Source: Actinomycetota bacterium (GTDB taxonomy: Bacteria > Actinomycetota > Thermoleophilia > RBG-16-64-13). From it: a DNA stretch of 64,000 bases. The translations under genes and the position numbers were made by a program. The notes beneath the pieces were generated by a model. It was not told the origin of the DNA. It searched no databases and saw only the letters and a program-made list of their open reading frames with translations. Shown here in pieces: positions 6,193 through 64,000 of this stretch; position 1 is the stretch's first letter; the number at the start of each line of letters is the position of its first letter. Where the stretch lies: contig JADQBG010000016.1 of NCBI GenBank assembly GCA_016278725.1, forward strand, positions 1-64,000. The letters are read 5' to 3'.

Positions 6193-6978
6193 ATGCCAAC
6201 AGCGGGAGAGCAGGCGCGGATTCTCGTGGTCGAGGACGACCCCTCCATCCTGGAGCTGCTCGAGTTGTACCTCAGCGGTCAGGGCTACCTCGTGGACACG
6301 GAGAGCTCCGGGTCTAAGGCGGCCGAAAGGGTGAGAGAAGGACGGCCCGACCTGCTGGTCCTGGACTTGATGCTGCCCGAGCAGTCCGGGTTCGACGTGC
6401 TCAAGCAGGTGCGCGCATTCTCGCAGGTGCCGGTCATCATCCTGACGGCGAGGGACGCCGAGCACGACAAGATCCTGGGACTCGAACTCGGGGCCGACGA
6501 TTACATGACCAAGCCTTTCAGCCCGGGCGAGCTCGTGGCCCGCGCCCGGGCCGTCCTGCGGCGCGCCTCCTCGGGGGAGAGCGGCTCCTTGCAGGCGGGC
6601 GACGTCGAACTGTTGCCCGAGGAACGCGTGGTCCGGGTGGGGGAGCGCTCACTGGATCTCACTCCCAAGGAGTTCGAGCTCCTGCGATATCTGCTCTACA
6701 ACCGGGGTATCGCCCTCAGCCGGGAACGGTTGCTGGAGGAGGTCTGGGGCTACACCTTCTACGGCGACGCGCGCACGGTCGACGCCCACATCCGGCAGCT
6801 GCGCAAGAAGCTCGAGGACTGGAGTCCTCTGATCCAGACGGTGTGGGGCGTGGGCTACAAGCTGGACCCGAATCAACGCCCGGCGGCCGAGGCCGAGCAA
6901 TCCGAGGGAGCGACCGGCGCCGAGCGGCCGGACGATGCGCCCGGCGGGACCTCGCCCGGCGGGACGCCGCCAGACTAG
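6193..6978 (+). CDS. OmpR/PhoB-family response regulator
   Basis: 261 residues from ATG 6193, which has GGGAGGTG at good spacing. A GTG start at 6163 would lie inside or next to the -10 box and is less likely. The receiver domain spans about residues 8-120: acidic pocket VVEDD, phospho-acceptor Asp in LLVLDLMLPEQSG, the Thr in IILTARD, and the Lys in DYMTKPFSPGEL. The winged-helix DNA-binding domain is at about 130-225, with LTPKEFELLRYL and the recognition segment DARTVDAHIRQLRKKL. A disordered tail of about 35 residues is rich in Gly, Pro and Glu. Its stop codon overlaps the histidine kinase GTG, so the pair is translationally coupled. The signal is unknown. Confidence 0.95.
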   Translation: MPTAGEQARILVVEDDPSILELLELYLSGQGYLVDTESSGSKAAERVREGRPDLLVLDLMLPEQSGFDVLKQVRAFSQVPVIILTARDAEHDKILGLELGADDYMTKPFSPGELVARARAVLRRASSGESGSLQAGDVELLPEERVVRVGERSLDLTPKEFELLRYLLYNRGIALSRERLLEEVWGYTFYGDARTVDAHIRQLRKKLEDWSPLIQTVWGVGYKLDPNQRPAAEAEQSEGATGAERPDDAPGGTSPGGTPPD

Positions 6979-8477
6979 TGAGCGCGCTCAGCCGCATTCC
7001 CGGCTCGATCTCGCGGCGCGTGATCCTCTCCGTGGTCGGGGTCGCCGTGGTCACTTTGCTCGCGGTGGGCCTGCTCTTCTACGGGTTTCTGGGCCGCTAC
7101 GTGGTCGAGCGGCAGAAGGACGAGCTGCTCTCCCAGGTGGAGGTGGTCGCGGAGCAGGTCGCGGGCATCGGTGAGGCCTTCCCCACGATGGGGATGATGC
7201 GGAGCCCCCGCGGCCTTGCCACCCTGCTCAGGGTCGACCTCCAGGCGCTGCCGGCGGGGGCGGGCATCATGGTTTTCGAAGGCGGCGAGGTGATCGCGGC
7301 GGCGGGGCCGCCCTGGGTGCAGGCGGTCTCCCCGGAAGGCCTTTACCAGGAGGCGGCGGAACTGGTTTCCGAGGGGGAACCCGGCGTCGCGGACCTCCCG
7401 GCGCCGGGTGAAGGGCAGCGCCTGATCGTTGCCGCCGCAGAGATGCCGCAACCGGCGCCTTCCACACCTTTTCAAGAAGCGCTGATCGCCATCGGCCTGC
7501 CCACCGAGGAGGCCGTCGCCGACCGCTGGGGCCTCTTTCGCGTGCTGCTGCTTTCCGGAGTCATCGCCCTGGGCATCGCCGTGGCCGTGGGCCTGGGTCT
7601 GGGGGCGTGGCTGAACCGCCCGCTTCGCCGGCTGGCCGCGGCCTCTCGGGGCATGGCCTCGGGTTCTTACACCGAACCAATCGAAGGCGATTACGCGGGG
7701 GAGTTCTACGATCTGGCCTCGAGCATGGAGACCATGCGCCGCGAGGTGAGGCGCAGCGAGACCTCTTTGCGCGCCTTCGTGGCCTCGGCCGCCCATGAGT
7801 TACGGACGCCCCTTACCTCCATCTCCGGCTTCAGTCAGGCGCTGCTCGACGGTACCGCGGCCGACGCCGTTTCGCGGCAACGCTCGGCGGCCGCCATCTA
7901 CCGGGAGGCGGGCCGGCTACGGCGATTGGTCGACGCGTTGCTGACCCTCTCCCGCTACGACTCGCGGGAGTTCACTCCTCGTCTGGTGCCGGTCGACGTT
8001 TTCGACCTGGTCACCGAGGAAGTAGAACTGCTGCAGGCGGCAGGCCTCGCCGAGGCCGGGTTTGTCGACACGAAAAGAGAAGGCGACACGGTGGTCACCA
8101 GCGATCGGGACATGCTGCGGCAGGTGATCGCCAATCTCCTGAAGAATGCGGTCACCTACGGCGGGGGCGAACCGGTGCTGGTCGAGATCGAGGGCCGCCC
8201 GGAGACGCTCGTGCTGACCGTGAGCAATGGCGGAGAGCCGCTGCGGCCGGAAGACCGCGAGCGCGTGTTCGAGAGGTTCTACCGGGGCGATGCCTCTCGC
8301 GGTTCGGAAGGCTTTGGCCTGGGCCTGCCCCTGGTCAAGGAAATCGTCGAAGTCTTGGGCGGCACCGTCGAGGCCGGGGGTGAGGGGCAGAGGACCATCT
8401 TCAGGGTGAGGCTCCCCCGGTCGCCCCTGGTCGCAGCTCGGTCCCCCGCCGAGGGCGCAGCTGCGAACGGTGCGTAG
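6978..8477 (+). CDS. Sensor histidine kinase (HAMP, HisKA, HATPase)
   Basis: The GTG start sits in TAGTG at the end of the response regulator and gives 499 residues. TM1 is at about residues 14-36, followed by an extracytoplasmic sensor of about 150 residues. TM2 is at about 188-210 and is followed by a HAMP linker (NRPLRRLAAASRGMASG). The HisKA domain carries the phosphorylated His in SAAHELRTPLTSISGF (about 274). The ATPase domain has the N-box LLKNAV and the G-box region GFGLGLPLVKEIV. An upstream in-frame GTG at 6843 would add 45 residues overlapping the regulator gene and is rejected. The sensor region has no recognised PAS or Cache signature. It partners the regulator encoded just upstream. 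Confidence 0.95.
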   Translation: MSALSRIPGSISRRVILSVVGVAVVTLLAVGLLFYGFLGRYVVERQKDELLSQVEVVAEQVAGIGEAFPTMGMMRSPRGLATLLRVDLQALPAGAGIMVFEGGEVIAAAGPPWVQAVSPEGLYQEAAELVSEGEPGVADLPAPGEGQRLIVAAAEMPQPAPSTPFQEALIAIGLPTEEAVADRWGLFRVLLLSGVIALGIAVAVGLGLGAWLNRPLRRLAAASRGMASGSYTEPIEGDYAGEFYDLASSMETMRREVRRSETSLRAFVASAAHELRTPLTSISGFSQALLDGTAADAVSRQRSAAAIYREAGRLRRLVDALLTLSRYDSREFTPRLVPVDVFDLVTEEVELLQAAGLAEAGFVDTKREGDTVVTSDRDMLRQVIANLLKNAVTYGGGEPVLVEIEGRPETLVLTVSNGGEPLRPEDRERVFERFYRGDASRGSEGFGLGLPLVKEIVEVLGGTVEAGGEGQRTIFRVRLPRSPLVAARSPAEGAAANGA

Positions 8478-8499
8478 GGCGGCCGGGAGTCCGGCCGCC
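8478..8499 (+). terminator. Hairpin directly after the histidine kinase gene
   Basis: A perfect 9-bp stem GGCGGCCGG / CCGGCCGCC with a 4-nt loop begins at the base after the TAG stop. There is no T-run, so it could be a factor-dependent terminator or a 3'-end stabiliser. Confidence 0.4.
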
Positions 8500-8578
8500 G
8501 CGGGGGTTGCCGGAGGGCTAGGACGTTTGCCCTGCCAAGAAGTGGGAATGGCCACATTGTCGTCGATTGGAGTGCCCC

Positions 8579-9970
8579 ATGCGCATTACCCTCTTGGAGC
8601 CCGCGCCGCCGGGCTTTCACGTCTATAGCTTCATCAAGCAGGTGAGGCTGGGACTGCCGCTGCTTGGAGCCATGCTCCGCTCGGCCGGGCACGACGTGCG
8701 CGTCTACGTGGAAGGTCTGGGCCGGGTGGACTGGGACCGCGTAGCCTGCTCGGATCTGGTGGGTATTTCGACCACCACCTCTACGGCGATGAAGGCCTAC
8801 CGTTACGCCGGGGCCCTCCGCGCGAAAGGGGTCCCCGTGGTGATGGGGGGGCCGCATGTGACCTTCCTCGCCGAGGAAGCCCTGGAGTTTGCGGACTACG
8901 TGGTCCGGGGCGAGGGCGAGGTCCCCCTGATGCAGTTGGTGGCTCACCTCGAGGGAGAGGGGCGCCTTGAAGACATTCAGGGGATCTCCTATGTCGACGA
9001 AGCCGGAGAAGCCCGGCACAATCCGGCACCGGCGGAGCGCCCCCAATTGGACGACATCCCCCTGCCCGACCTGCGCTTGGTCGAGCATCACGAGCGCATC
9101 TCCCCGACGCCGTTCCTCACCTCCCGCGGTTGTCCCTTTGACTGCGATTTTTGCTCGGTGATCGAGATGTTTGGCCGGCGCGTCCGCTCGATCGCGCCGG
9201 AGCGCATCATCCAGGCCATGAAGGAAGCCCAACCCACCGGCATCTTCTTCTACGACGACAACTTCATCTTCAACAAGAAACGGGCCAAGCGCCTGCTGGC
9301 GCTCATGATGCGCGAAGGGGTGAATGTTCCGTTCTCCGCCCAAATCCGCGTGGATTCGATCCACCGCAATGGGCGCACCGACCACGAGATGCTGCACCTG
9401 CTGCGTGAGGCCGGCTGCTACCTGGTCTACCTGGGCCTCGAGTCGGTGAACCCGGAGACCCTGCGCGACTTCAACAAGCAGCAGACGGTGGAAGACATCG
9501 CCGGGGGCCTGCAGGCGCTCGCCGACTACGGCATCAAGACCCACGGCATGTTCGTCTTCGGATCGGACAGCGACACGCTCGAGACCATCGAAGAGACCGT
9601 CGATTTCACCCTCGAACACCCGGTGGGCTCGGCACAGTTCCTGCTGCTGACCCCGCTGCCCGGCACCCGGCAGTTCGCGCGGTTGGAACGGGAAGGGCGG
9701 CTCTTCACCCGCAACTGGAGTCTCTATGACGGGCACCACGTGGTCTTCTGGCCCAAGCACATGTCGCCGGAGGAGCTTCAGGCTGCGACGCTCGAAGCGC
9801 ATCGGCGCTTCTACAGCCCATCGCGGATCCCTCATAACCTGAAGCACCGGCTGGAGGGGTTCTTGATCTCCCGCGGCTGGGAGCGCGTCCCCCAGAACAT
9901 GGCCTACCTCAAGGAACTCAGGGTTTTCACGCGGGACACGCCCCTGCCTCCCTCGATGCGCACGGTCTGA
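8579..9970 (+). CDS. B12-binding domain radical SAM protein
   Basis: 463 residues from ATG 8579 (GGAG six nt upstream); a TTG four codons earlier is less likely. The N-terminal cobalamin-binding-type Rossmann domain spans about residues 1-150: VGISTTTSTAMKAYRYAGAL, MGGPHVTFLAEEAL and VRGEGEVPLMQL. The radical SAM domain carries the 4Fe-4S motif CPFDCDFC (about 185-192) after LTSRG. Later come FYDDNFIFNKK, LGLESVNPETL and LLTPLPGTR, typical of the B12-radical SAM (MiaB/Elp3-like) barrel. Such enzymes do methylations and other radical chemistry, including lipid and cofactor modification, so the substrate cannot be read from the sequence. It stands alone between the two-component genes and parA. 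Confidence 0.85.
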   Translation: MRITLLEPAPPGFHVYSFIKQVRLGLPLLGAMLRSAGHDVRVYVEGLGRVDWDRVACSDLVGISTTTSTAMKAYRYAGALRAKGVPVVMGGPHVTFLAEEALEFADYVVRGEGEVPLMQLVAHLEGEGRLEDIQGISYVDEAGEARHNPAPAERPQLDDIPLPDLRLVEHHERISPTPFLTSRGCPFDCDFCSVIEMFGRRVRSIAPERIIQAMKEAQPTGIFFYDDNFIFNKKRAKRLLALMMREGVNVPFSAQIRVDSIHRNGRTDHEMLHLLREAGCYLVYLGLESVNPETLRDFNKQQTVEDIAGGLQALADYGIKTHGMFVFGSDSDTLETIEETVDFTLEHPVGSAQFLLLTPLPGTRQFARLEREGRLFTRNWSLYDGHHVVFWPKHMSPEELQAATLEAHRRFYSPSRIPHNLKHRLEGFLISRGWERVPQNMAYLKELRVFTRDTPLPPSMRTV

Positions 9971-55657: not shown

Positions 55658-55726
55658 CGCTGCTGGCCCACCGGGCGCTCAGCCTCCGGGCGCGCGACGC
55701 TAGGCGGTCGTCGGGGTGGCCCTCCT

Positions 55727-55807
55727 GCCGGAGTGGCGGAATGGCAGACGCAACGGTCTTAAACACCGTAGGGGAAACCCGTCCGGGTTCAAGTCCCGGC
55801 TCCGGCA
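55727..55807 (+). tRNA. tRNA-Leu (anticodon TAA), integration site
   Basis: An 81-nt tRNA with a long variable arm: acceptor GCCGGAG pairs with CTCCGGC, discriminator A. The anticodon stem ACGGT/ACCGT encloses CTTAAAC (anticodon TAA). The variable arm is GGGGAAACCCG-like, and the T-arm has GGGTTCAAGTCCC. CCA is not encoded. The 3' half lies next to a tyrosine integrase and is the likely attachment site; the gene itself remains intact. Confidence 0.95.
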
Positions 55808-55868
55808 TTATCAGGTTTTGCAGGTAATTCTTGCCAAACTGGGGACCTAGCAAAGTCTCTAGGTTCCC

Positions 55869-55906
55869 GAATTGCCGCCCAGCTGCCGCCCTCCTCTGAA
55901 TTGCCG
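55869..55906 (+). repeat. 9-bp direct repeats, possible integrase arm sites
   Basis: GAATTGCCG occurs at 55869-55877 and 55898-55906, with related TGCCG and TGCCA words between and after. They sit between the tRNA end and the int stop codon, where arm-type binding sites of tyrosine recombinases usually lie. Confidence 0.4.
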
Positions 55907-57082
55907 TCATTTACTGCCACCCGCGGGCACGTTGTAAGCGGTGTCCAGGTGCGCGGCTGCCTGCTGGTCAGCGCCGGGTAGAAGATGTCCATATAGGTCA
56001 GCAGTGATCGCTATGGTGGAATGGCCGGCCCGGGCGGAGACCACCTTAAGCGGAACCCCTCGGAGCAGCAGGTGGGTGACGTGTCCATGTCTTAGATCGT
56101 GGAAGCGAACCAGGGGGAGGTTGTGCTTCCGAATCATGGCGGAGAACGCGCTGGTCAGCGTGGAAGGCCGCCAAGGGCTCCCGTCCTGCGAAGGCAGGAC
56201 CAGGTTGTTGTCCTGATAGCCGGCCCCCAGCATCAGGCGCTGCTCGTTCTGCGCCTTGCGGTGCTCCTTCAACGCTTTGACCACGAACGCGGGCAGGCAT
56301 ACGGTGCGCCGACTCTCGCGGCTCTTGGGTTCTTTGAAGCTGAGACCTTCCCGCGTCTCAGACAGTGAACGCTTGACCGTTGCTTCCCCGGTCTCGAGGT
56401 TGACGTCCGCCCAGCGAAGCGCCAAGAGCTCGCCACGCCGGAGACCGGTGCCGATGGCGAGCAGCACAGGCATGTGGAGCGGGGTTCCCACCACGGTGTC
56501 GAGCAGTTGCGCCGTCTCATTCTCGGTCAGTACCTTCAGGTTGCCGCCGCGCTCCACCTTGGGCGGTGTCACGGCGTCCGTCGGGTTCACGGCGAGCATG
56601 CGCATCTTGACCGCTTCTCCCAAGGCCTCCCGGAGAACGCGGTGGATGTGTAGAACGGTCCGAGGCGACAACCCGGTCGGTTCCCCGTCGGCGCTGGGCT
56701 GCTTAAGGCGGCCGCGGTCGAGACGGTCTGAGTAGAACGTCTGAATATCTATCGGCCGCAGCTTGTCGAGCTGGATCTCTCCGAGGCAGGGCTCGAGGTG
56801 TAGGCGCACGATGTCCCGATAGCCCTGGAGGGAACGCGGGGAGACCTGGTGACGAGCATGGTCCTCAAGCCAACGTTGCAGGAACTCGCCCAACGTCATC
56901 TTCGCCGGCGGGACATAGACCCCGAGATCCCGGGCGCGGGATAGGCGGGTGTGTTCCTGCTCCGCTTGACGCTTGGTTCCGCGGAAGCTGTGAAAGCTGC
57001 GGACCCGCTTCCCGGTCGATGGATCGACGCCAAGATTGACGCAGATCTCCCAGTAGTTTTGACCGCGTTTGCGGATGCTCAC
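55907..57082 (-). CDS. int: Tyrosine recombinase (phage-type integrase)
   Basis: 391 residues from GTG 57082, with AAGGGGGG upstream. An N-terminal AP2-like/arm-binding region (SIRKRGQNYWEICVNLG) precedes the core-binding SAM-like domain (MTLGEFLQRWLEDHARHQVS). The catalytic domain has Arg in TGLRRGELLALRW, Lys in KEPKSRESRRTV, His-x-x-Arg in RFHDLRHGHVTHLL, the second His in RAGHSTIAI, and the nucleophile Tyr in TADLYGHLLPG. All catalytic residues are present, so it should be active. The gene points away from the element toward tRNA-Leu and overlaps the upstream zinc-finger gene by 4 nt. Confidence 0.95.
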   Translation of the reverse strand: MSIRKRGQNYWEICVNLGVDPSTGKRVRSFHSFRGTKRQAEQEHTRLSRARDLGVYVPPAKMTLGEFLQRWLEDHARHQVSPRSLQGYRDIVRLHLEPCLGEIQLDKLRPIDIQTFYSDRLDRGRLKQPSADGEPTGLSPRTVLHIHRVLREALGEAVKMRMLAVNPTDAVTPPKVERGGNLKVLTENETAQLLDTVVGTPLHMPVLLAIGTGLRRGELLALRWADVNLETGEATVKRSLSETREGLSFKEPKSRESRRTVCLPAFVVKALKEHRKAQNEQRLMLGAGYQDNNLVLPSQDGSPWRPSTLTSAFSAMIRKHNLPLVRFHDLRHGHVTHLLLRGVPLKVVSARAGHSTIAITADLYGHLLPGADQQAAAHLDTAYNVPAGGSK

Positions 57083-58197
57083 TTTGCCCCCCTTGGTTTG
57101 ATCCACTTGCGGACCTGCTCCACGTCTCGGTCCATTCTGCCGGCGATCTCTTCGACGCTCAGACCTTCCTTTGCGTACCTGGTCGCCTGTGACCTGTTCT
57201 TGCGGTACTCCTGCTGCGCTTTTGCTCGGGCGCACTCAGGTGAGCAGTAGAGAACATTCTTCATTCGATGCTGACCGAACTGCGCGCCGCCTCGTTGCCT
57301 AACAAACGGACGGCCGCACTTCTCGCACTTGTGGTAGGTGGCCTCTTCTGCGATGTGGTTAGCCAACTGAAGGCATAGGGCGCTGTAAAGGCTTATCGCG
57401 GGAGATTCTTCGAGTGTTTCTGTTTCCTCGTTCTCGATGGTTTTATAGATGACAGGGTGAGCATGGAAACTACGGAGCCCAGCCGCTAAGAACTTATTAA
57501 GGAAAGCGTACAGGTCAGCGGGTTCCTTGGGCGGGGTCACTTTTAGTTGGAAGAACTCGTCCACCTGCCTCGCTTTCTCCATGTCGCCATCCTCTAACCA
57601 AGGGCGGGAATAGGCCCATGCTAAGAGCTCGTGCTCTTTCTCTTCGCTGGGCCAAGGGTGTATCTGCAATTCCGGCCACAAAGCGTTTTCCCACGAGGAA
57701 GCAACGTCGTCAAAAGTAAGCAGTCCGCGATGGTAATGCCAAACCCGCGCCAAATCGCGAACTAATCCAATGCGAAATGCAACTTCCTCAACCGACACGA
57801 GAACAGGGCGAGGTTGTATCTCTTCTAGGTGCCGCTGAAAGTACGGTTGGGTTTTCGCAAAAAAACGGCGGAACAGGCGCTCTTCAGACTTTCTATGCCA
57901 CGATTTCAGTCCTGATCCTGGTAACTCGTTCAGCGGCAGGTGGGGTGTCAGCCGCCCATACCTTTCAGTGAACGCGGCGAGCTCGCCAACATCCTCGACG
58001 TTCAATTCTTGAAGCTCGCGTAAGTAGAGCTCTTCGGGTGGGACCGCGGACTTCTGTGGATCAGTCGGAGCGAATAGAAGGAAGGGACCGCCCTCTTCGC
58101 CTGCGCCATCCAGAATCTCGACTTTGCCCGCCGAAGGCACCGGCGGAACCGGTATCTGTGTACCTGGCCAGACCGTAACATGAAATCGTGTATTCAT
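57079..58197 (-). CDS. Zinc-finger and HTH protein of the element, possible regulator
   Basis: 372 residues from ATG 58197 (GGAAGG upstream); upstream frame is not coding-like. Residues 1-290 are an uncharacterised helical region (ELQELNVEDVGELAAFTERY, IGLVRDLARVWHYHRG). A treble-clef-like zinc finger follows, with CEKCGRPF and CSPEC about 30 residues apart, resembling CGNR/FCS-type fingers. The last 45 residues form an HTH: RYAKEGLSVEEIAGRMDRDV. It is co-transcribed with int and divergent from xis-primase, the position of the master repressor in phage satellites, but no repressor family is recognised. Base composition is lower in GC than neighbours. Confidence 0.7.
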   Translation of the reverse strand: MNTRFHVTVWPGTQIPVPPVPSAGKVEILDGAGEEGGPFLLFAPTDPQKSAVPPEELYLRELQELNVEDVGELAAFTERYGRLTPHLPLNELPGSGLKSWHRKSEERLFRRFFAKTQPYFQRHLEEIQPRPVLVSVEEVAFRIGLVRDLARVWHYHRGLLTFDDVASSWENALWPELQIHPWPSEEKEHELLAWAYSRPWLEDGDMEKARQVDEFFQLKVTPPKEPADLYAFLNKFLAAGLRSFHAHPVIYKTIENEETETLEESPAISLYSALCLQLANHIAEEATYHKCEKCGRPFVRQRGGAQFGQHRMKNVLYCSPECARAKAQQEYRKNRSQATRYAKEGLSVEEIAGRMDRDVEQVRKWIKPRGAK

Positions 58198-58246
58198 TCT
58201 GTTTGCCTTCCGTCCGGCTCGACCTGTATTGTGGCGCGTAGTGGGT

Positions 58247-58257
58247 TGTGCTGCACA
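58247..58257 (+). promoter_or_regulatory. Palindrome in the divergent control region of the element
   Basis: TGTGCTGCACA is a perfect 11-nt palindrome flanked by GGTT and AACC at slightly unequal distances. It lies in the 101-bp gap between the zinc-finger/int operon and the xis/primase operon and is a reasonable operator for the element's switch. Confidence 0.4.
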
Positions 58258-58298
58258 GAACCTATCACTAGTGCGCTTCAGGCGCAAGGAGGCCCCGC

Positions 58299-58502
58299 AT
58301 GGACGCAAGGCAAGGCCAACGCATCGAGGAGATGCCCGACATGCTGACGGTCGATGAGGTGGCCGCCTGGTTAGGCTGCTCAGTCGGCACGGTTCGCCGC
58401 ATGATCCACGCCGGCACGCTCGCCCGGGTGAAGGTGGGACGCCTGGACCGAGTGCCGAAGAAGGAGCTCGTAAGAGTGCGGGACGGCGGCCTGGATGGGT
58501 GA
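58299..58502 (+). CDS. xis: Excisionase-type HTH protein
   Basis: 67 residues, ATG with AAGGAGG upstream. The winged HTH of the MerR/excisionase superfamily is clear: MLTVDEVAAWLGCSVGTVRR, then MIHAGTLARVKVGRLDRVPK. Such proteins guide the integrase toward excision or regulate early genes. It is the first gene of the rightward operon and overlaps the primase start by 8 nt. Confidence 0.85.
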   Translation: MDARQGQRIEEMPDMLTVDEVAAWLGCSVGTVRRMIHAGTLARVKVGRLDRVPKKELVRVRDGGLDG

Positions 58503-61185
58503 AGGGAAGCGGCAGGGCGCCCGCGCCAACGAGCGCCCCACAGAAGCCGCCAAGGAAGGAATACAAGCCAAGCCTATCCCACCGGGAGCGGGACCTCAAG
58601 AGACTATAGAGACCGCCCTACGGCTGCTCCATGCGCCCGGAAACGTGTTCGAGATCCGCATACCCCACGCGCCCGGAGCAGGGACGGTTGCCGGGTACTT
58701 CGACGATCCGGCAGCAGCAGCCCGGGAGGTTATGGTCTGGAACGGTAAGGCTGCCGGTGTATACGTCACGCTGAACCCGGTGGCGCCTGCCCTGCTCAGC
58801 CGAGCATCCAACCGCCTGAAGTCCTACGCCAAGGAGACAACCTCCGACGCCGATGTCCTGCGCCGGCGTTGGCTGCTGGTAGACATCGACCCGATCCGCC
58901 CTGCCGGTGTCAGCGCATCAGATGACGAACTAAAGGCCGCGGGCGCCGTGGTCCGAAAGGTGCAGGCATATCTAAAGGAAGCCGGATGGCCGGCGTCCCT
59001 GGTAGCCGCGAGCGGCAACGGTGGCCACCTGCTCTACCGCATCGACCTACCGAACGACACCGAAAGCCTCGGGCTCGTGAAGCGTGTGCTCGCAGGCTTG
59101 GATGCCCGCTTCAGCACCACCAAGGTGCACGTCGATACTTCGGTGCATAACGCGGCCCGTATCGCCAAAGTACCCGGAACCCTGGCCGCGAAGGGTGATA
59201 GTACCAAGGAGCGCCCGCATCGCCACTCACGCCTCCTAGAGGCCCCAGAGCAGCCCGAGCCGGTGCCCGTGGCCCTACTCGAGAAGATGGCCGCTCAAGC
59301 GCCTGAACGGACCGCAGGCACGAACGGGACCCGCTCAGCGTTTGATCTGGACGCGTTCATCGACAGCAACCTCGACGTGCAACGTGCAAAGCAGCAGCCG
59401 GACCGCACGATCCATATTCTTCGCGTCTGCCCCTTCAACTCGGAGCACGACCGCGGGGAAGCCTACGTCGGGACGATGAAAGACGGCGGGATCTTCGCCG
59501 GCTGTCACCACAACTCATGCACCTGGACGTGGCGGGACCTGCGGGAACGTTTTGAACCTCCGCCGGCGTCTAGCACTTCCGACCGGTCAGTCCGAATCGC
59601 TGACCACGACCAGACATCAGACTGGGACGACCCGCTTCCCCTCGACCATTGTGGTCGGCTGCCTGTGTTCCCGGTGAACGTGCTCCCGCCGGATTTTGTG
59701 GGTTTTGTGAAGGAGATCGCGGAATCTCGGCAGGTCCCGGTGGATATGCCCGCCGTCGCCGTGCTCGCTGCCTTGGCTGCTGCTGCCGCCGGCCGCTACC
59801 GGGTGGAACTCCCTTCCCACAGTGAGCCCTGCAACCTCTATACGGTCTGCGCCCTGCCGCCCGGGCTCAGGAAGAGCCAAACACTCGAGGATGTAGCCGC
59901 GCCCCTGCATGAGGCCGAGCGCCGGCTGGTCGAGTCGATGCAGTACCACGTGGATCGTGATCGGGCGGAGAGGGAAGTGACCGAGGCCCGGGCGAAGCAG
60001 TTGCAGACCAGAGCCGCCAAGACTGACGATCCACAAGAGCGCCAACTCCTTCAGGCAGAGCTAACCGAACTGCACGCGGCTGCCGGCGATCCGGTGGCGC
60101 TTCCCCGGCTCACCTTCGACGATGCCACCCCCGAGCGTGTGGCCCAGCTGCTCGCAGAGAATAGCGGCAGGCTCGCCATGTTCAGCGCCGAAGGCGGCAT
60201 CGTCGGCATGATGGCCGGCAGGTACACCGAGAAGGGTGGACCCAACCTAGACGTGTACCTGAAGTCCCACGCGGGAGATCCGCTCCGGGTGGACCGGGCA
60301 TCAGGGCGAACGGTGAATATGACAGCCCCGGCGCTGACCCTCTGCCTCTTGGTGCAACCCGAGGTGCTGCGGGAACTCGCCCAGGTCAGAGGTGGCCGCG
60401 GTCGCGGTCTGCTCGGTCGCTTCCTCTACAGCCTACCCGAGCCCAACCTGGGAACCCGGATGTATCGGCCCCGGGGGATAGACCCGGCCATCGAGGCCCG
60501 CTACCACGAGAGGATGCTCCACCTCTTCGCCGCCCAGCCTGACGGCGATGTCCGTGGTCTGGAACTCCGCGGAGAGGCGCTTAAGGTGTGGGCGGCCTTC
60601 CATGACCGCATCGAGCGACGGCTGACACCGGACGGTGATCTTCGCCCGATGGCCGACTGGGCGGCCAAGATCGCGGGCGCTGCTGCGCGGATGGCCGGGA
60701 GCTTCCACGTGGCCAAGCATCCCCAGCCGGAGACGGTACCCATCGACGCCGAGACGGTGGCGGCAGCGGTGACGATTGCCGACTACTTCGTCGCCCACGC
60801 CGGCGCTGCCTTCGGGGAGATGGCCGACTCGCCCGACATGGCCCTCGCCCGACGCGTGTTTGCTTGGATCGAGCGCCGGGAGTATCCCCGTGAATTCTCG
60901 CTCCGGGACCTGCATCAGCACATCAGGACCGAGACGCCTGACGAACTCCTGCCGGCGCTTCACCTCCTCGAGGATCGCTCCATCGTCCGGCAGGTGAAGG
61001 TGGAACCCAGCCGAACCGGCCGGCGACCCGGCCCTCACTTTTTCGTAAATCCCAAGCTGGAAAACGGTTCACAAAATTCACAAAAGGGATCGGAAACAGC
61101 CGAAGAGACGAGTTTTGTGAGTTTTGTGAATGATTCCGGGCTTCCTGAAAACGAAAAAGCGATCAGGAAGGCGGTGAGGCTGTGA
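58495..61185 (+). CDS. AEP primase/DUF3987 replication protein of the element
   Basis: 896 residues. The archaeo-eukaryotic primase domain spans about 35-260: the metal Asp pair in LLVDIDPIRP, ASGNGGHLLYRIDLP, and VHVDTSVHNAARIAKVPGT. A zinc-binding segment (about 315-350) has CPFNSEH and CHHNSC. The DUF3987 helicase-like region (about 400-800) has CALPPGLRKSQTLEDVAAP where a Walker A is expected. The GxxGxGK loop is altered, so ATPase activity is doubtful or divergent. Near the end GFVKEI and SFVND-like words arise from GTTTTGTGA DNA repeats. It probably starts replication of the excised element. Confidence 0.85.
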   Translation: MGEGKRQGARANERPTEAAKEGIQAKPIPPGAGPQETIETALRLLHAPGNVFEIRIPHAPGAGTVAGYFDDPAAAAREVMVWNGKAAGVYVTLNPVAPALLSRASNRLKSYAKETTSDADVLRRRWLLVDIDPIRPAGVSASDDELKAAGAVVRKVQAYLKEAGWPASLVAASGNGGHLLYRIDLPNDTESLGLVKRVLAGLDARFSTTKVHVDTSVHNAARIAKVPGTLAAKGDSTKERPHRHSRLLEAPEQPEPVPVALLEKMAAQAPERTAGTNGTRSAFDLDAFIDSNLDVQRAKQQPDRTIHILRVCPFNSEHDRGEAYVGTMKDGGIFAGCHHNSCTWTWRDLRERFEPPPASSTSDRSVRIADHDQTSDWDDPLPLDHCGRLPVFPVNVLPPDFVGFVKEIAESRQVPVDMPAVAVLAALAAAAAGRYRVELPSHSEPCNLYTVCALPPGLRKSQTLEDVAAPLHEAERRLVESMQYHVDRDRAEREVTEARAKQLQTRAAKTDDPQERQLLQAELTELHAAAGDPVALPRLTFDDATPERVAQLLAENSGRLAMFSAEGGIVGMMAGRYTEKGGPNLDVYLKSHAGDPLRVDRASGRTVNMTAPALTLCLLVQPEVLRELAQVRGGRGRGLLGRFLYSLPEPNLGTRMYRPRGIDPAIEARYHERMLHLFAAQPDGDVRGLELRGEALKVWAAFHDRIERRLTPDGDLRPMADWAAKIAGAAARMAGSFHVAKHPQPETVPIDAETVAAAVTIADYFVAHAGAAFGEMADSPDMALARRVFAWIERREYPREFSLRDLHQHIRTETPDELLPALHLLEDRSIVRQVKVEPSRTGRRPGPHFFVNPKLENGSQNSQKGSETAEETSFVSFVNDSGLPENEKAIRKAVRL

Positions 61186-61562
61186 ACCAAGTGCGCCGCA
61201 TCATGGACGCGTTGACCGCATCCCTGGTGCGTGTGGAGCTCGACGGGGAGCAGCTGGTCCTGGACCCGCTCTTCCCCGAAGAGCATCCGATGGACGCGGC
61301 CCTGGTCGAGCAGGTGCGCGAACACAAGGACATCGTCGTGGCGCGGCTGCGCTGGGAGGAAGAAGCCGACCGGCTCCTGCTGGAAGCCTCCCACCGGCTC
61401 GCCGCGGTCTACCCCGGATGCCCGCTCGAGTGTGACGTGTGGCAACCCCACGAGGATGCTCTTCAGGCTGCCTACCACGACGGTGATCTGGGCGCACTTA
61501 CCCGGGCGCTTGCTGCCCGGGAGGTGTTCGCCCGTAAAGCCTTCAGGAAGGGAGCAGCGTGA
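61182..61562 (+). CDS. Element protein with TubC-N-like docking domain
   Basis: 126 residues, GTGA overlap with the primase. Residues 10-55 (VRVELDGEQLVLDPLFPEEH and ALVEQVREHKDIVVARL) follow the short beta-beta-alpha TubC N-terminal docking pattern, often found in small proteins next to phage-type primases. The second half is helical (ALTRALAAREVFARKAF). A role as a primase partner is inferred from position and pattern only. Confidence 0.6.
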   Translation: MNQVRRIMDALTASLVRVELDGEQLVLDPLFPEEHPMDAALVEQVREHKDIVVARLRWEEEADRLLLEASHRLAAVYPGCPLECDVWQPHEDALQAAYHDGDLGALTRALAAREVFARKAFRKGAA

Positions 61563-61681
61563 AGCCTACTCCCTGCAAAGCCTGCGTAGCTTGCGCCCTG
61601 GACTGTAAGCAGATGCTGCCGACTGAGGTTGTGTTCTGCGGCAAGTATGACCCTCTCGCCCAGAAAGAGAGCGGCAAGTGA
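61559..61681 (+). CDS. 40-residue Cys-rich protein
   Basis: A short GTG-started gene linked by GTGA overlaps to both neighbours. It has six Cys: CKACVACALDC near the start and a late FCGKYD. The spacing CxxCxxCxxxC could bind zinc or an iron-sulfur cluster. The double overlap and ordered Cys pattern support a real gene despite its size. Similar mini-proteins are common in actinophage early operons. Confidence 0.6.
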   Translation: MKPTPCKACVACALDCKQMLPTEVVFCGKYDPLAQKESGK

Positions 61682-61917
61682 AAACTACCTTCGAGGTTAA
61701 GCCGGTCACGCTGGAACACAAAAAAGCCTGGGCCTACTACGTCCGCACGGACAAAGGCCGGCTAGTCGCCTTTGCCATAGTCAACACCCGCGCCGAGGCT
61801 GAACAGGCGGGTCAGAAGTCTCACTCTCACGCCCAATTAAAGGGAGGTTTCACCGATGACGTAACCCGTCCCGTAAGAGGTTGGAAGAAGATGCACCAAA
61901 CATCCGAAAGGAACTAA
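61678..61917 (+). CDS. Small element protein of unknown function
   Basis: 79 residues, GTGA overlap. The fold looks like two beta strands and a helix (AWAYYVRTDKGRLVAFAIVN, TRAEAEQAGQKSHSH). The C-terminal part is basic (RPVRGWKKMHQ). No family is recognised. It fits the operon by direction and spacing. Confidence 0.55.
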   Translation: MKTTFEVKPVTLEHKKAWAYYVRTDKGRLVAFAIVNTRAEAEQAGQKSHSHAQLKGGFTDDVTRPVRGWKKMHQTSERN

Positions 61918-61925
61918 CGAACAAA

Positions 61926-62282
61926 ATGGCTATTACATTCAAAGAAGCGAGTCTACTCGCCCACCAATACGGTCTTACCCTGACCGATGCGAAAAGCCTA
62001 ATCTCCGCCGCGACCTTCGAAGAGGCACAGTCAATAGCGAAGATCTGGAGTGAGCCCCGGCAACGATCTCGCGCCGAACTGAAAACCATGACCCCGACCG
62101 AGATCTTGGCGGCGCGAGACCGCGGCGAACTCTCGGAACTGCTCGGCCAGAAGAAACCCACCAAGGCCCCGGCTGAGTCTGGGCAGCTCACCCGGGAGGA
62201 TCTGGCTTCCATGTCGCCCGAGCAGGTGCTCGAGGCCCGGGACCGCGGCGATCTGAACCATCTGCTGAAGGGCGGCAACTAA
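61926..62282 (+). CDS. Element protein with duplicated phage-type 'SPEE-x-ARDRG-x-L-x-LL' motif
   Basis: 118 residues from ATG 61926 (AAAGGA about 13 nt upstream; TTG 61881 is an alternative). The N-terminal 50 residues are helical (EASLLAHQYGLTLTDAKSLI). Two tandem copies of a 27-residue unit follow: RAELKTMTPTEILAARDRGE-LSELL and REDLASMSPEQVLEARDRGD-LNHLL. Single copies of this motif are common at the C-terminus of actinophage head or scaffold-type proteins. A doubled version in an early operon is unusual. The stop overlaps the next start (TAATG). Confidence 0.65.
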   Translation: MAITFKEASLLAHQYGLTLTDAKSLISAATFEEAQSIAKIWSEPRQRSRAELKTMTPTEILAARDRGELSELLGQKKPTKAPAESGQLTREDLASMSPEQVLEARDRGDLNHLLKGGN

Positions 62283-63118
62283 TGACCACCAAGACGAGCG
62301 AAACCCTAGCCAAGATAGCCGGCCTCGATCTGAGCTCCCACCACTTCCGCGAACTCTCCGCGTGGCTGGCGGCCGCGAAGGCCTGCGGCTTTGAACTCCC
62401 GGGCGATGCGCTCGAGCCGCTGACGCAGGTCATCCACCTGGACCGCGAGCAGCAGAAGGCCACCAAGCCGGCCCCGCCCGAGATCGGCCCCGCCCTGCGC
62501 CTGCTCTCCGGGCGCACGGCGGAGGAAGTGTTCGCAGAAGATGACGCGCACACGGCCGCGGTAGCCTTCGAGTCTCGCCGCTCCCAACTCCTAAGCGCAG
62601 CACAGAACGCGCTGCAGACGACCATAGCCTAAAGCCTCGCCCCGCATCGCGCCAAGCTGATCGCGGGCCCGCTGCGGGCCGCCGTGGCCGAGACGCTGAA
62701 AGACGCTCGGAAGGTTGCCCGGAAGTTGGAGGCCTACGCGCCCAGCTACAGCGCCGCGCTCCTGGCTGAAGGGAGCGAGCGGGAGCTCAACCTCTGGAGA
62801 TCGTCGCGGGAACTGCAAAGCCGCTTCGACACTTTGCGGGATGCTTACCTGCTCTCAGTCAGCGCCGAACTGGAAGCGGGCATGAGGCCGCAAAGAGCCG
62901 GCGGATACTTCGCCTGGTCTAACCCCGACGCGGTACATCCTGCCGAGCTTAGGCTAGGCCAGAACGCCGAGGTGCTCGCGGTGGCAACGGCGCCGAGCGG
63001 TTACGAATTAAGGACGGCGGCGGAAGTCCTCGCCTTGATAGACGAGATGCAATCGACACTCCCACCAAGCGCGCCCGCCAACGCGCGGACCATCGTGCGA
63101 ATGGGAGTCTGCCAGTGA
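62282..63118 (+). pseudogene. Element gene split by an in-frame TAA (62630-62632)
   Basis: Two open pieces (62282-62632 and from GTG 62684 to 63118) share one frame and are separated by a single TAA. The 17 codons between stop and GTG read as coding sequence (SLAPHRAKLIAGPLRAAV) and continue into the second helix-rich part (AETLKDARKVARKLEAYAP). The whole would be about 278 residues, mostly coiled-coil, like many actinophage early proteins of unknown function. A nonsense mutation, a sequencing error, or stop-codon readthrough could explain it. If the stop is real and final, the second piece could still be made from GTG 62684. Confidence 0.6.
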
Positions 63119-63273
63119 CAGACCGCCGACCACGGCGAGCGGAAAGGGGGAGCGGCGACCGAGCCGCCCCCCCGAGGTGGGGGGTGACCCCAAAGCTCTT
63201 TCGCCCATGCGCGGGATGCATAGCACTTCCCTATGTGCGTCCCGGCATTACCCTCGATTTTACAAGGAGATAA
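63115..63273 (+). CDS. Possible 52-residue element protein
   Basis: GTG start in a GTGA overlap with the preceding frame, ending 3 nt before terS. It is basic, with an Arg-rich head (MTDRRPRRAERGSGDRA) and a CAGC pair (LFRPCAGCIALPYVRPG) that could be a zinc knuckle. Overlap and full use of the gap favour a real gene, but no homology is recognised. Confidence 0.4.
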   Translation: MTDRRPRRAERGSGDRAAPPRWGVTPKLFRPCAGCIALPYVRPGITLDFTRR

Positions 63274-63276
63274 ACC

Positions 63277-63663
63277 ATGTCTGACAGGCAGATACCCCGG
63301 GCGCCGGCCCACCTCCGTACTCGAGGGCGCCGATTGTGGCGTTCAATCGTGGAGGGATTCGACCTAACGCAGGCAGAGCAGGACCTACTGCTCGAGGCTT
63401 GTAGGACGCTGGACATCGTGGAAAGCCTGGAGGTTGCGCTTCGGGACCAACCCGCGTTGGTGACAGGTAGCCGTGGTCAGCCCGTCGCGCATCCGTTGGG
63501 CTCAGAACTCCGATCTGAGCGGCAACTGCTCGCCAAACTGATCGCGCAGTTGGGACTCCCCGACGCCGATGCTGAAGGCGGCGAATGGGACGGCCTAAGC
63601 GCAAGCCAACGCGCCCGCAAAGCCGCCTTCAGCCGGTGGCAGCATCGTGGTGGTGTGAAGTGA
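63277..63663 (+). CDS. terS: P27-family phage terminase small subunit
   Basis: 128 residues, ATG with AAGGAG upstream. The P27 pattern is clear: APAHLRTRGRRLWRSIVEGF, LTQAEQDLLLEACRTLD, and VTGSRGQPVAHPLGSELRSE followed by LLAKLIAQLGLPD. Small terminases bind phage DNA and hand it to the large subunit for packaging. In phage satellites a lone terS redirects helper packaging to the satellite genome. No large terminase follows in the last 330 bp. Confidence 0.88.
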   Translation: MSDRQIPRAPAHLRTRGRRLWRSIVEGFDLTQAEQDLLLEACRTLDIVESLEVALRDQPALVTGSRGQPVAHPLGSELRSERQLLAKLIAQLGLPDADAEGGEWDGLSASQRARKAAFSRWQHRGGVK

Positions 63664-63992
63664 AAAGACGGCCAACCCCAGACCCGCCCGACCCCCGGGA
63701 ACGTATGCACGAGCTCACCGAGATCCTGACCGAGAAGTCGGCCGCGGGCGAAGACGTGAGCAACAACCCGCTCCTCGCTGAACTCGAGCAGCATAGCCCG
63801 GTTATGGCTGATCGCCTTCGCCGTGGGCTATCGCCCTACAGCGACCCCTTCTGCCCTGGCGAGACCACAGCGGATCACGTTATCCGCCTAATGGAAGAGC
63901 GCCTGGACCCCCACCCACACCTCGAACACCTCATTGAAAAGGCCGAAGCCGACCTGGACGCGGCGAAGGAAGGCAACCCCGACAACTGCTAA
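63660..63992 (+). CDS. Small helical element protein after terS
   Basis: 110 residues, GTGA overlap with terS. It is acidic and mostly helical (MHELTEILTEKSAAGEDVSN, LEHLIEKAEADLDAAK), with a Pro-rich head. No domain is recognised. Position suggests a packaging or regulatory accessory protein. The remaining eight bases of the window hold nothing. Confidence 0.6.
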   Translation: MKRRPTPDPPDPRERMHELTEILTEKSAAGEDVSNNPLLAELEQHSPVMADRLRRGLSPYSDPFCPGETTADHVIRLMEERLDPHPHLEHLIEKAEADLDAAKEGNPDNC

Positions 63993-64000
63993 CCCTGATT

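Follow-up and report, generated by a model that had tools for sequence, protein, structure and literature searches.

Phage-inducible chromosomal islands (PICIs) carry an integrase gene (int) and a repressor gene in one direction, and xis, a primase or rep gene, small genes and, optionally, the terminase small subunit gene terS in the other (PMC6092414). They have no phage structural or lytic genes, occupy a specific attachment (att) site unused by prophages and are typically ~15 kb long; their master repressor, Stl or Rpr, is lifted by a helper protein (PMC6092414). In SaPI1, the 72-amino-acid (aa) dimeric protein CpmB has a C-terminal helix-and-hook in common with the scaffold of phage 80alpha; it binds the capsid protein in place of the scaffold, and every dimer spans two capsomers, restricting the angle between them (PMC5644958). 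Satellites of Actinomycetota have been reported (PMC10654092, PMC10690885) or suspected (PMC10023795), and since the former include candidate PICIs in Mycobacterium (PMC10654092), an Actinomycetota satellite by itself is not new. Here we describe an element in a tRNA-Leu gene of a Thermoleophilia bacterium (GCA_016278725.1), which begins in the window analysed, i.e. the first 64,000 bases of the 86,083-bp contig JADQBG010000016.1, and ends beyond it. We consider it likely that this is a PICI-type satellite, complete at 9.06 kb and probably mobile, whose TerS redirects packaging and whose scaffold mimic acts on the capsids of a helper phage.

The tRNA-Leu gene is intact, as a sequence-only reading of the window had noted, and the second copy of its 3′ end, which that reading proposed to look for past the window, was found: the 50-bp repeat at 55758–55807 (attL) recurs with zero mismatches at contig 64821–64870 (attR), 821 bp beyond the window end. 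The spacing of the repeats gives an element length of 9,063 bp, with 870 bp lying past the window edge. Just inside both ends sits a 20-bp repeat whose two copies resemble an integrase arm-type site, and no further copy was found in L002 or the window with two mismatches allowed (shuffle expectation 0.00). The perfect att repeat and the inner repeat pair therefore indicate that the element is complete. Past attR lie chromosomal genes, read from sequence alone as a methyltransferase and apparent tetrahydromethanopterin-type genes. The features of the element, including small open reading frames (ORFs), are as follows.

55726–55808, plus strand: intact tRNA-Leu (taa), the integration site; its last 50 bp are attL.
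55872–55891, plus strand: TTGCCGCCCAGCTGCCGCCC (also given as TTGCCGCCCAGYTGCCGCCC), putative integrase arm-type site, with its 20-bp partner at contig 64648–64667 near attR.
55907–57082, minus strand: int, tyrosine recombinase (PF00589 1.5e-23, PHROG 1 4e-76), with a GTG start inside the end of the zinc-finger gene.
57079–58197, minus strand: zinc-finger/helix-turn-helix (HTH) protein of CGNR type, 372 aa, candidate regulator by position, scores under Pfam cut-offs.
58299–58502, plus strand: xis, excisionase-like HTH_17 protein, 67 aa (HTH_17 2.8e-11).
58495–61185, plus strand: primase–helicase fusion, 896 aa, with a primase-type N-terminus and a DUF3987 helicase (DUF3987 4e-97).
61182–61562, plus strand: small ORF, 126 aa, no family.
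61559–61681, plus strand: short Cys-rich ORF of 40 aa with weak evidence for coding.
61678–61917, plus strand: small ORF, 79 aa, no family.
61926–62282, plus strand: putative scaffold mimic, 118 aa, with N-terminal helices and two tandem phage scaffold C-terminal motifs (residues 49–76 and 86–117).
62282–62632, plus strand: small ORF, 116 aa, no family.
62684–63118, plus strand: small ORF, 144 aa, start uncertain, no family.
63277–63663, plus strand: terS, P27-type terminase small subunit, 128 aa (PHROG 1496 2e-21, P27 TIGR01558 1.4e-7), with no large subunit gene (terL) behind it.
63660–63992, plus strand: small ORF after terS, 110 aa, no family; the element runs on to contig 64870.

This gene order agrees with that described for PICIs (PMC6092414), with the zinc-finger/HTH gene in the presumed repressor slot. 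Gene calls, and family matches for int, agree with the leftward int and zinc-finger/HTH genes of the sequence-only reading, and its rightward xis, primase/DUF3987 and P27 terS are borne out by the HTH_17, DUF3987 and PHROG 1496 matches; for terS, the TIGR01558 and PF05119 scores are both under the curated cut-offs. The int and zinc-finger genes overlap by 4 bases. The small rightward ORFs mostly overlap one another, as the overlapping mini-genes of that reading would have it, but it passed over the scaffold-like gene among them. A 17-bp near-repeat, CCCATGCGCGGGRTGCA, at 63204–63220 and contig 64150–64166 brackets terS and the next ORF; it was rejected as a packaging site, its three matches in the window being not above chance. 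A search for defence genes with PADLOC gave one weak, unconvincing match only.

Searches of the element and its relatives with actinophage TerL, portal, capsid and tail proteins (tblastn), together with family searches, gave no gene in the window element that could be recognised as terL, portal, capsid or tail. The same tblastn found TerL adjoining terS in two true prophages (L112 and L113), which served as positive controls. No lysis genes were recognised in general family searches of the element, there being no separate search for them, and no conjugation or mobilisation genes were recognised in it either. The lack of structural and lytic genes, with several small ORFs matching no family, conforms to the definition of PICIs (PMC6092414), and from the capsid, portal and terminase set by which capsid-forming PICIs (cfPICIs) are recognised (PMC10690885) only terS was found. 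An ordinary prophage was rejected: the element stops at 64,870, has no virion genes and is followed by chromosomal genes, with no terL, portal, capsid or tail genes up to the contig end, 22 kb past the window. The compact prophage that the sequence-only reading had named as the main alternative was thus not borne out, and its proposal of an actinobacterial PICI-like satellite is supported by the gene order, the second att copy and the absence of virion genes. Like PICIs (PMC6092414), the element has their gene order, no recognised virion or lysis genes and an att site at a tRNA gene; unlike them, it is 9 kb rather than ~15 kb long, has a zinc-finger gene in place of Stl/Rpr and, as far as tested, is no sequence relative of the described ones. 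We use the label ‘PICI-like satellite’ because of the small size, the lack of a recognised Stl/Rpr-type repressor and because induction, interference and packaging are here predictions from the genes.

Two stretches of the 118-aa protein match PHROG 2592 (‘head scaffolding protein’), and its tblastn matches are mostly annotated scaffolding proteins. In five annotated phages, where the scaffold gene directly precedes the capsid gene (one scaffold is annotated only as hypothetical), the match is to the extreme C-terminus of the scaffold. Scaffolds ending in this motif include those of Thermobifida P318, Streptomyces Success and Dubu, and Mycobacterium phiGD20-1. Alignments of the second copy gave z-scores of 10.8–15.9 against shuffles. 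A profile constructed from 14 IMG/VR phage scaffold tails and nothing else detects the motif twice in the 118-aa protein, at residues 86–117 (51.8 bits) and 49–76 (28.0 bits). All 19 full-length phage scaffolds examined, 14 of which contributed to the profile, have a single copy, always C-terminal. When the ORFs of 15 elements were compared, strong profile scores were obtained only in the window and in genome G228, whose 75-aa counterpart has a second copy of 62.6 bits and a marginal first copy of 12.0 bits, equal to the best of 1,000 shuffles. Scanning with the motif returned only phage scaffolds from IMG/VR, one of them cut by a contig end, and only the G228 record from the genome contigs. 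The AlphaFold model of the protein (16 sequences; mean predicted local distance difference test score, pLDDT, 84.5) suggests N-terminal helices at 5–54, a first short hook at 57–72, a lower-confidence linker and a second hook at 90–114.

C-terminal homology to the capsid-binding end of a phage scaffold, the mark of CpmB-type proteins (PMC5644958), is therefore found in the 118-aa protein, and capsid binding may be proposed by analogy. Like SaPI1 CpmB (PMC5644958) and SaPIpT1028 Rcm (PMC12409344), it is a short helical satellite protein with a scaffold C-terminal region; unlike them, it stems from a different scaffold family, and no relation to the RIIK motif is claimed. In contrast to the CpmB dimer, which has one motif per subunit, the window protein has two motif copies in a single chain.

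The zinc-finger gene is divergent from xis, and the Cys residues of its product are kept in relatives. No Stl/Rpr-type family match was found for this protein, which fills that slot, and we infer from gene position only that it is the repressor. Near-full-length homologues with 29–31% identity occur on Streptomyces plasmids, one of them annotated as a CGNR zinc finger; therefore the family is not satellite-specific. No integrase is listed alongside the annotated homologue in the two regions viewed. The suggestion of a non-Stl type regulator in the sequence-only reading thus stands as far as a zinc-finger gene occupies the repressor position, but that position is its sole basis and the family extends to plasmids. 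The AlphaFold model of the zinc-finger protein (pLDDT 41) was too poor for fold search, and searches of solved structures with scaffold, primase, zinc-finger and TerS queries gave nothing useful.

Related genomes, which the sequence-only reading had proposed to search, have elements of similar size at further tRNA genes within the class. The int–zinc-finger–xis–primase block recurs near tRNA-Cys in G040 (identities of 81% for the primase, 75% for xis, 57% for the zinc-finger protein and 47% for int) with a different right half, which indicates modular exchange and another integration site. Right of the primase, that locus (L030:1807–10483), the closest relative, has instead another recombinase-like gene, an ATPase and an apparent type III restriction-modification pair. 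In G010, from the same genus, this tRNA-Leu gene leads into the 3′ terminus of a related int, with the same inner repeat, before the sequences diverge; this int remnant is a decayed relative of such an element. An extracytoplasmic function (ECF)-sigma-like gene comes after the remnant (L119, G010 contig 49, about 135,900). Within the own genome, L031:6861–14899 (contig C6) encodes an int, a zinc-finger protein, a ParB/DNA-methylase fusion and a primase 42% identical to that of the window; it was rejected as a sister satellite, as neither a terS homologue nor an att repeat was found.

The window TerS found matches in 8 of 299 genomes of the class and a profile based on six such proteins in 15 of 399, both counts including the window genome and the second including some genomes from which the profile was built. 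Small terS elements with att pairs are present in G228 (8,331 bp, tRNA-Leu), G129 (10,580 bp, tRNA-Arg) and G018 (9,492 bp, tRNA-Gly), whereas the ends are uncertain for the terS element of G010 (15-bp repeat) and for G231 (74% repeat), and that of G122 is on an 8.1-kb contig. TerL was not detected by tblastn in the window element or in those of G228, G122, G010, G129, G018 and G231. No relatives came up when IMG/VR was scanned with TerS, with the primase or with the zinc-finger pair. Two integrase elements, L053:6743–13964 (G231) and L058:5057–14593 (G018), have their own major capsid gene and terS with no detected terL, and could possibly be intermediate between TerS-only and capsid-forming satellites. 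The G010 terS element next to tRNA-Thr (L051:14373 to L052:4769), where only a 15-bp end repeat was found, is a second, unrelated one; it has a D5-type primase, a sigma-factor-like gene and an integrase of the serine family. In G129, a 111-aa ORF upstream of terS (L057:4884–5219) and a 778-aa protein (6858–9194) have no match among known families; the former was suspected by eye to be a different type of scaffold mimic, for which we found no support.

In the mechanism we propose, a helper phage would derepress the divergent promoter of the zinc-finger gene and xis, the element would be excised by Int and Xis, and the primase–helicase would replicate it. The satellite TerS would then recruit the helper large terminase to satellite DNA, while the 118-aa protein would sit where the scaffold binds the helper capsid protein, in competition with the helper scaffold. 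The two hooks of each chain may tie neighbouring capsomers, as the SaPI1 CpmB dimer does, giving smaller shells. By this analogy, the protein probably acts on helper procapsids as a scaffold mimic, remodelling or blocking them in a way convergent with CpmB, and redirection of capsid size is tentatively favoured over simple poisoning. The latter, in which the protein of a PICI-like satellite only interferes, as a dominant-negative scaffold fragment that poisons procapsids, and the DNA is packaged in normal heads, possibly as multimers, seems to us unlikely. It is consistent with a protein that is, by analogy, a capsid-binding motif and little else, and with the need of small SaPI1 capsids for CpmA besides CpmB (PMC6893505), since, unlike in SaPI1, no CpmA-like partner was recognised in the element; however, the two-copy layout, also suggested in G228 with its marginal first copy, favours capsid-subunit spacing over blocking.

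Two further explanations were considered. TerS and scaffold tails are phage genes, and G010 retains an int remnant, as might be expected if the element were a decayed prophage with terS and the scaffold-like ORF left over after deletion of the virion genes. We regard this as improbable, given the perfect att repeats, the open and tightly overlapping genes and the tandem duplication of the scaffold tail only; furthermore, the scaffold tail again accompanies terS in a small, distant element, and several elements of 8–10.6 kb are intact. Least probable is a non-viral integrative element, plasmid-like or a mobilisable island, that acquired terS: the zinc-finger family on Streptomyces plasmids and the related primase in L031, without a terS homologue, would suit it, but no conjugation or mobilisation gene was recognised, and terS and the scaffold mimic, which share one operon here and are each present in G228 too, suggest virion piracy.

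Several observations nevertheless count against a satellite that acts on helper capsids. The scaffold homology rests on profile work, because the best phage tblastn E value for the 118-aa protein is only 3e-3; fold searches with its model gave no significant match, and that the motif binds capsid is proposed by analogy with 80alpha. No helper prophage was detected, as PF03354 (TerL-ATPase) and PF04860 (portal) have no match in the host genome, which is 99.65% complete. The nearest relatives of the scaffold tail and of TerS are in different phages: the nearest phage TerS is that of Mendokysei, whose scaffold tail has no match, and the TerS of phages P318, phiGD20-1, xhp1 and Dubu gave no hit to the window TerS. 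For these last two reasons, the true helper phage is probably unsampled so far.

Among small elements of Actinomycetota, the PICI-like satellite resembles the Mycobacterium candidate PICIs (PMC10654092) and the 11-kb JSForest1 and Alyssa1 of M. aichiense, to which its TerS is 43% and 36% identical, respectively. Those are defined by or carry a capsid gene, whereas the window element has none and has a scaffold mimic. Streptomyces MulchRoom and MiniFlayer are also phage satellites in Actinomycetota, but they lack a primase and encode terminase, portal, capsid and scaffold proteins (PMC10690885); apart from terS, the window element is the reverse. In the open-access literature searched, neither a scaffold mimic with two hooks nor CpmB-like mimicry in Actinomycetota was encountered, which is not proof of novelty. 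We tentatively suggest that TerS-type satellites of this little-studied actinobacterial class may have independently evolved CpmB-like piracy, with a single-chain, double-hook mimic straddling two capsomers and a zinc-finger regulator unrelated to Stl. If this is true, capsid takeover by copying the capsid-binding tip of the scaffold would have arisen separately in Actinomycetota, and the 118-aa protein would be a natural single-chain version of a mechanism so far described as a dimer. A short ORF with a scaffold tail, together with terS without terL, would provide a search handle for satellites missed by capsid-based searches, and the scaffold mimic would predict which type of helper phage should be sought.

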